In this document: one piece after another, positions 18,176 to 18,805 of the stretch
How the letters are laid out: the number at the start of each line of letters is the position of its first letter
Numbering within the stretch: position 1 is the stretch's first letter
Origin: Terriglobales bacterium
GTDB lineage: Bacteria; Acidobacteriota; Terriglobia; Terriglobales; Acidobacteriaceae
Length of the DNA stretch: 64,000 nucleotides
Assembly: GCA_035651655.1 (NCBI GenBank)
Contig: DASRFG010000024.1
Span: forward strand, 1 to 64,000
Direction: 5' to 3'
The notes under the pieces: model-generated
Databases searched by the model: none
The model's input: the letters and a program-made list of their open reading frames with translations, nothing else
Told to the model about the DNA's origin: nothing
Program-made: the position numbers and the translations under genes

Positions 18176-18805
18176 TTATTTTTTCGGTCCGCTCGCTTGC
18201 CTGGCAGGCGCCTGAGCTCCAGCCCCCTGAAGCGCGGGTTCCCGGCCGACTCCTAACGCATCTGCAACGCGGTTGATGTAATTGAACCAGGACGCGATCA
18301 ATGTAATCTGCAGGATAGCCTTGTCATCAAACCCAGCTTTTCTCAGTTTCGCATGGTCATCGGGGCTAACCCGCGTCGCATCCTTCGTGAGCTTGACCAC
18401 GTAATCCAGCATGGCCAATTCTTGAGTTGTAATGGGGGCGGTGGTGTAGTCCGACTCAAGCGCCCGCACCAGCGATTCATCCAACGTGACCCGACGCAGA
18501 AACTCTGCGTGAGACTCAATTCAATAAACGCACCGGTTCGTAACTGACACCACGGTAGTGATCATCTCGTGCTGCCGTCGAGTCAGAGGAAGATCGGGCG
18601 ACATCAGCACCCCGAAGGTGGCAAAGGCGTGGTACAGGGCCTGCGGCAATAAGGTGTGGGAAGCTACGATTTCGGCAGGGCCTCCTTCCACACTGGGATG
18701 GACCGGAACGAGGTACTCGGCCGGATAAAGCTCGTGGGCCTTCTTCATAGCATCCAGCAAATCCTGGCTGGCTTCGCTGATGGGAATGGTTTTGATCCAA
18801 GCCAT
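18176..18805 (-). CDS. AhpD-like (carboxymuconolactone decarboxylase family) selenoprotein, TGA read as selenocysteine
   Basis: 209 aa if the in-frame TGA at 18521-18523 is decoded. ATG 18805 has AGGAGGGA upstream. The family signature is E-x11-C-x2-C-x3-H; here it reads E80 ... C92-V-Y-U95-I-E-S-H99, so the stop falls exactly on the second redox cysteine. The 114 codons after it stay in frame and match the family ([54 protein letters not shown]). A 7-bp hairpin with a G-starting 3-nt loop begins 10 nt after TGA, as in bacterial SECIS elements. AhpD-like enzymes reduce peroxides through a CxxC pair; a CxxU site would raise reactivity. The alternative is a simple nonsense mutation. Confidence 0.8.
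18494..18523 (-). promoter_or_regulatory. Bacterial SECIS-like hairpin with its UGA
   Basis: Reading on the minus strand: TGA at 18523-18521, 10 nt, then ACGCAGA-GTT-TCTGCGT (18510-18494). The stem is perfect, the loop is 3 nt and begins with G, and the UGA-to-loop distance is about 20 nt. These fit the bacterial SECIS rules bound by SelB (short apical loop with an early G, 16-37 nt from UGA). Confidence 0.72.

Follow-up and report, generated by a model that had tools for sequence, protein, structure and literature searches.

An In-Frame TGA at the Active Site of an AhpD-Like Gene

The AhpD-like gene studied here lies in a 64,000-nt stretch of DNA from a Terriglobales bacterium (hereafter the window) and raises the question of whether a TGA codon within its reading frame ends translation or encodes selenocysteine (Sec, U). 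With TGA translated as U, the gene forms a single open frame of 209 residues, in which U stands at position 95 and is followed by 114 further residues (Table 1). A first-pass annotation of this DNA had described an in-frame UGA at the second redox cysteine and a frame running on for 114 codons, both of which were seen in this translation; its coordinates were right, and the strand, which it had left unstated, is the minus strand. The active-site motif reads E80-x11-C92-V-Y-U95-I-E-S-H99, so that the TGA occupies the second CxxC position. We conclude with very high confidence that the product is a full-length selenoprotein of the AhpD-like "peroxidase-related" type, with SelB-dependent, hairpin-directed Sec insertion at codon 95 and a likely function in peroxide or disulfide reduction.

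Table 1. Coordinates of the selenoprotein gene, its elements, and other loci mentioned in the text (window positions, or genome:contig:positions or locus:positions where so written).
Feature	Coordinates	Strand	Description	Basis
AhpD-like (TIGR01926) selenoprotein gene	18805-18176	minus	209 codons; ATG at 18805, TAA at 18178-18176	TGA=U translation; TIGR01926 and Pfam CMD matches
In-frame TGA (U95 codon)	18523-18521	minus	second CxxU position	TGA in 30/30 same-family orthologues and 108/110 further loci
SECIS hairpin	18510-18494	minus	ACGCAGA-GUU-UCUGCGU	fold, synonymous-site conservation, compensatory changes, rarity among window TGAs
Cys92 codon	18532-18530	minus	TGC, first CxxU residue	translation; invariant in 30 orthologues
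Shine-Dalgarno-like sequence	18825-18806	minus	AGGAGG before the ATG	sequence itself
AhpD-like paralogue L021	G000:C1:139899-140282	minus	adjoins selB, on the opposite strand to it; CxxU	hairpin CGCUUC-GUC-GAAGCG
AhpD-like paralogue L022	G000:C26:13189-13581		in-frame TGA, CxxU	hairpin CCGUCUU-GGC-AAGACGG
AhpD-like paralogue L023	G000:C23:315651-316040		in-frame TGA, CxxU	hairpin UCUGCUUC-GGC-GAAGCAGA
selD (L223)	G000:C24:84020-84976	minus	in-frame TGA at residue 17
tRNA called Ile(TAT) (L002)	G000:C25:154857-154942	minus		56.4 versus Rfam tRNA-Sec cut-off of 47
Cys form (L089)	L089:5001-5591		Latescibacterota, Lake Baikal	TGC replaces TGA
AMP-binding/acyltransferase fusion gene (example)	L072:5724-8483		downstream of the orthologue

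Conservation of the TGA and of the Frame Beyond It

A mechanical ORF caller cuts the gene into pieces of 129 and 102 aa, a result that would fit a nonsense mutation in a pseudogene or a true stop separating two short proteins, the second starting from a TTG at 18484. Comparison with relatives makes such an explanation barely credible. Among 150 sampled genomes of the same family as the window, 33 (the window's own included) carry a clear orthologue, with 64–79% identity to the window protein. The window gene and 29 other family orthologues were compared codon by codon, and TGA was found at the U95 column in every one of these 30 genes, which rules out a random mutation as the origin of this codon and bears out the earlier view that a chance nonsense mutation was unlikely. 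All 30 orthologues reach a similar C-terminus and are conserved on either side of the TGA. The residues after it are as conserved as those before it and the third codon positions vary, which indicates that the segment beyond the TGA is translated and subject to selection. The outcome that the first-pass annotation had named as fatal to a Sec reading, close relatives with TGC or TGT and a random loss of the downstream frame here, is therefore not what the alignment returned.

The same codon extends well beyond the family. A further 110 loci were drawn from a phylum-wide sample and from named contigs of Acidobacteriota, Gemmatimonadota, and Latescibacterota, with copies of genomes already counted among them, and 108 of these loci have TGA at the best-matching site. 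Homologues of the wider family at about 40% identity mostly carry TGA as well. Besides this sharing of the codon, the frame conserved on both sides, the constraint on the SECIS element, and the correlation with selB (both described below) speak against a pseudogene or a split gene. A second AhpD-like clade in the same bacterial family, with the motif CPYU-x-DSHAYFLRVQG (L193–L211), was also observed to contain TGA in all 19 members fetched.

A Conserved SECIS Hairpin Downstream of the TGA

A hairpin with a perfect 7-bp stem and a GUU loop starts 10 nt after the TGA, and its loop begins 18 nt after it. Bacterial SECIS elements have been modeled with a loop of 3–9 nt, a stem of 4–16 bp, a G at loop position 1 or 2, and a UGA-to-loop distance of 16–37 nt (PMC13188914), and the window hairpin fits this model with its 7-bp stem, GUU loop, and distance of 17 nt. 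Of the window's 2013 TGA trinucleotides, only six (0.3%) are followed by a comparable 7-bp G-loop hairpin at such a distance. Free-energy folding of the region gave a z of -1.96, which is only modestly unusual and weak evidence alone, and an Rfam covariance search of the region returned nothing useful.

Selection on the hairpin is visible at synonymous sites. Across the 30 orthologues, the mean third-position entropy is 0.27 in the hairpin region versus 1.14 for 104 other conserved codons. Codons 99–104 are almost frozen synonymously (GCA, GAG, TTT, and CTG in 30/30; CAC and CGT in 29/30), whereas neighboring codons vary freely. In divergent homologues, one stem pair changes from C-G to G-C and another from A-U to C-G or G-U. 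In a covariation test on 37 distinct sequences, which is diluted because the hairpin is shifted or altered in some divergent homologues, three of 500 shuffles equaled or exceeded the score, and three the percentage paired; the number of changed cells also exceeded the shuffles, but pair counts and pair-type counts did not. When the stem partners were slid against each other, pairing fell from 79.5% to 30–60% (at most 59.9%). The SECIS-like hairpin with a 3-nt, G-first loop proposed in the first-pass annotation thus holds up in its fold, its fit to the bacterial model, its synonymous conservation, and its compensatory stem changes.

Selenocysteine Machinery of the Source Genome

The source genome (4.07 Mb, 99.8% complete) encodes selA (558 bits), selB (358 bits), selD (361 bits), and a tRNA-Sec with anticodon TCA (66.8 bits). 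The lack of selB or selC, which had been put forward as a refutation of the Sec reading, was accordingly not found; all four genes are present. The selD gene itself, located approximately 20 kb past the window end on the same contig, contains an in-frame TGA, and SelD of this genome is likely a selenoprotein judging from its sequence; a script search identified no simple G-loop hairpin of at least 5 bp directly after that TGA.

The distribution of selB follows that of the TGA gene. All 22 phylum-sample genomes with a close TGA orthologue encode selB, compared with 174 of the remaining 275 (Fisher P 9e-5, shared ancestry ignored), and when divergent TGA homologues are included selB is found in 53 of 56 genomes (P 4e-8, shared ancestry ignored). 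In the family sample, 29 of the 33 orthologue-bearing genomes have selB (P 2e-5, shared ancestry ignored). The four with an orthologue and no detected selB are G036 (53% complete), G070 (84%), G076 (97%), and G091 (99%), the last with an orthologue match that falls in two separate frames. All four are draft genomes, and their draft state may explain these cases.

A conserved UGA could also be read as Cys, Trp, or Ser, either by a suppressor tRNA or under an altered genetic code. Such a decoding has some precedent, in that tRNA-Sec-like allo-tRNAs exist in Acidobacteria (PMC7609411), and a tRNA called Ile(TAT) in the source genome, which scores above the Rfam tRNA-Sec cut-off, resembles these allo-tRNAs. 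However, TGA remains a normal stop here, ending seven of the 28 window ORFs of at least 300 aa, and several orthologues terminate in TGA despite carrying an internal one. The full Sec set is present, and simple suppression needs no SECIS hairpin, yet the hairpin is strongly conserved. We therefore consider suppression or recoding highly improbable. From the computed frame, conservation, SECIS element, Sec machinery, and fold family we infer that Sec would actually be inserted at codon 95. In the proposed mechanism, a ribosome reaching UGA codon 95 would be met by SelB with Sec-tRNA(UCA) bound to the 7-bp hairpin downstream, and selenocysteine would be inserted instead of termination.

Cysteine Forms as Natural Controls

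Two genes with Cys in place of Sec serve as natural controls. The sole Cys orthologue in the phylum sample (L155), found with a profile, has Cys (TGC) at the U95 column and Thr at the first position (N-R-T-R-Y-C), and its hairpin is lost. Its genome is 99% complete and contains no selB over the cut-off, and its best tRNA-Sec match is a tRNA-Ser. In the Latescibacterota form from Lake Baikal (L089), TGC replaces TGA and the whole hairpin is kept, in a genome with selB and tRNA-Sec; the sequence suggests that this is likely a recent Sec-to-Cys change with a relic hairpin. A quick protein tree computed with the Sec column removed (34 Sec and two Cys forms; few columns and long branches) places both Cys forms inside the Sec clade, which suggests, but does not prove, that Sec is ancestral in this clade. 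With one Cys form in a genome that lacks the Sec machinery and another retaining the SECIS element, the loss of selenocysteine becomes directly testable.

Family, Fold, and Predicted Function

The window protein belongs to TIGR01926 "peroxidase-related enzyme" by score (112.9 bits versus a cut-off of 81.8) and matches Pfam CMD. It falls outside TIGR00777, the AhpD proper of the AhpC/AhpD system (18.7 versus 191.95 bits). An AlphaFold2 model built from the window protein together with its orthologues (mean pLDDT 70, with the N-terminal third poorly modeled) shows the all-helical CMD/AhpD fold, with 6k40 from D. radiodurans as the best match (Foldseek E 7.7e-11, TM 0.68/0.75). A profile search reaches the same group of structures, namely 2pfx, 3c1l, 2prr, 2oyo, and 6k40. 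These solved AhpD-like proteins and PA0269 (2o4d) share the all-helical fold and an E-x11-C-x-Y-C-x3-H type site with the window protein, whereas they have Cys where it has Sec. The proton relay of PA0269 consists of Glu36-Cys48-Tyr50-Cys51-His55 (PMC3141380), and the corresponding E80, C92, Y94, U95, and H99 of the window protein have identical spacing. AhpD of Mycobacterium tuberculosis (1knc, 1gu9) shares the helix-turn-helix active-site motif (PMC3141380), although its structural similarity to the model is weak (E about 0.03–0.1).

Selenoproteins of this type are not new. The earliest prediction of CxxU AhpD-like selenoproteins came from the Sargasso Sea (PMC1088965), AhpD-like 1 and 2 have been counted in ocean samples (PMC2398784), and TIGR01926 AhpD-like CxxU selenoproteins are listed in a 2026 catalogue (PMC13188914), in agreement with the earlier remark that the type had been predicted before. 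The window protein resembles the TIGR01926 CxxU form (PMC13188914; PMC1088965) in the curated score that it passes, the CxxU motif, and the fold; its own clade differs in being centered on soil Acidobacteriota, in carrying Sec in nearly every member, and in having a hairpin that is fixed. Among open-licence papers, we found none describing this acidobacterial clade. The model NF041238 AhpD_rel_CFYUT (Sargasso Sea hypothetical protein 1) shares the AhpD-type core and is Sec-aware at the CxxU position, but it is 357 positions long and the window protein scores as a non-member (60.5 bits versus a cut-off of 175). The score against NF053654, a YciW-related (seleno)protein model, is likewise below the cut-off (31.3 versus 310 bits), and the window protein stays below the cut-off of every Sec-aware NCBIfam model.

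Judging from family, fold, and active-site identity, a peroxide- or disulfide-reducing role may be predicted. The product would carry Glu80, Cys92, Tyr94, Sec95, and His99 in its active site, selenium occupying the second position of the CxxC motif, and would most likely reduce peroxides or disulfides via a Cys92-Sec95 selenenylsulfide cycle, the pair being regenerated by a cellular thiol donor. Another function, such as a thiol-disulfide adaptor, a dehalogenase-like enzyme, or some other redox enzyme, is compatible with Sec at codon 95 and is possible, if somewhat doubtful. The debrominase Bmp8 is among the structures recovered by the fold search (6ohj, E 1.5e-4), the family name was given by similarity only, and the peroxidase activity of PA0269 is only weak (PMC3141380). 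The best structural and profile matches, on the other hand, are all peroxidase-related AhpD-like proteins, and the residues of the proton relay are retained at exactly the same spacing.

Gene Neighborhood

The first-pass annotation had suggested that the operon was a novel aspect of this locus, a suggestion that did not survive comparison, as the genes beside it in the window are not a recurrent feature of 80 related loci. A search of these 80 loci for a conserved operon or partner returned only two weak or distant similarities, the downstream gene of the window is kept in one relative only, and no conserved neighborhood pointing to a substrate or redox partner was found among them. In 28 of the 80 loci, an AMP-binding/acyltransferase fusion gene lies downstream of the orthologue, on its strand in nearly every case; this gene is not always adjacent there and is absent beside the window gene.

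Paralogues and Implications for Acidobacteriota

Three further AhpD-like paralogues were identified in the source genome, each with CxxU and its own 6–8-bp G-loop hairpin. Their best match is NF053654 (79, 92.8, and 68.1 bits for L021, L022, and L023), and all remain below its cut-off. The hairpins of the three are unrelated, which indicates that a single genome meets the SECIS requirement by several sequence routes.

The window gene represents a branch of a known selenoprotein kind that is unusually well documented here and widespread. Whether Acidobacteriota as a whole carry an expanded AhpD-like selenoprotein set (at least four members, each with its own SECIS element, plus a Sec-containing SelD here), in which Sec is ancestral and Cys arose by loss, once together with the loss of selB, we regard as evenly balanced. 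If true, this would represent a little-described selenium-based redox system of soil bacteria. Standard gene callers break genes of this kind in two at the UGA, and many public genomes may therefore lack an enzyme conserved among abundant soil bacteria or list it only in truncated form.
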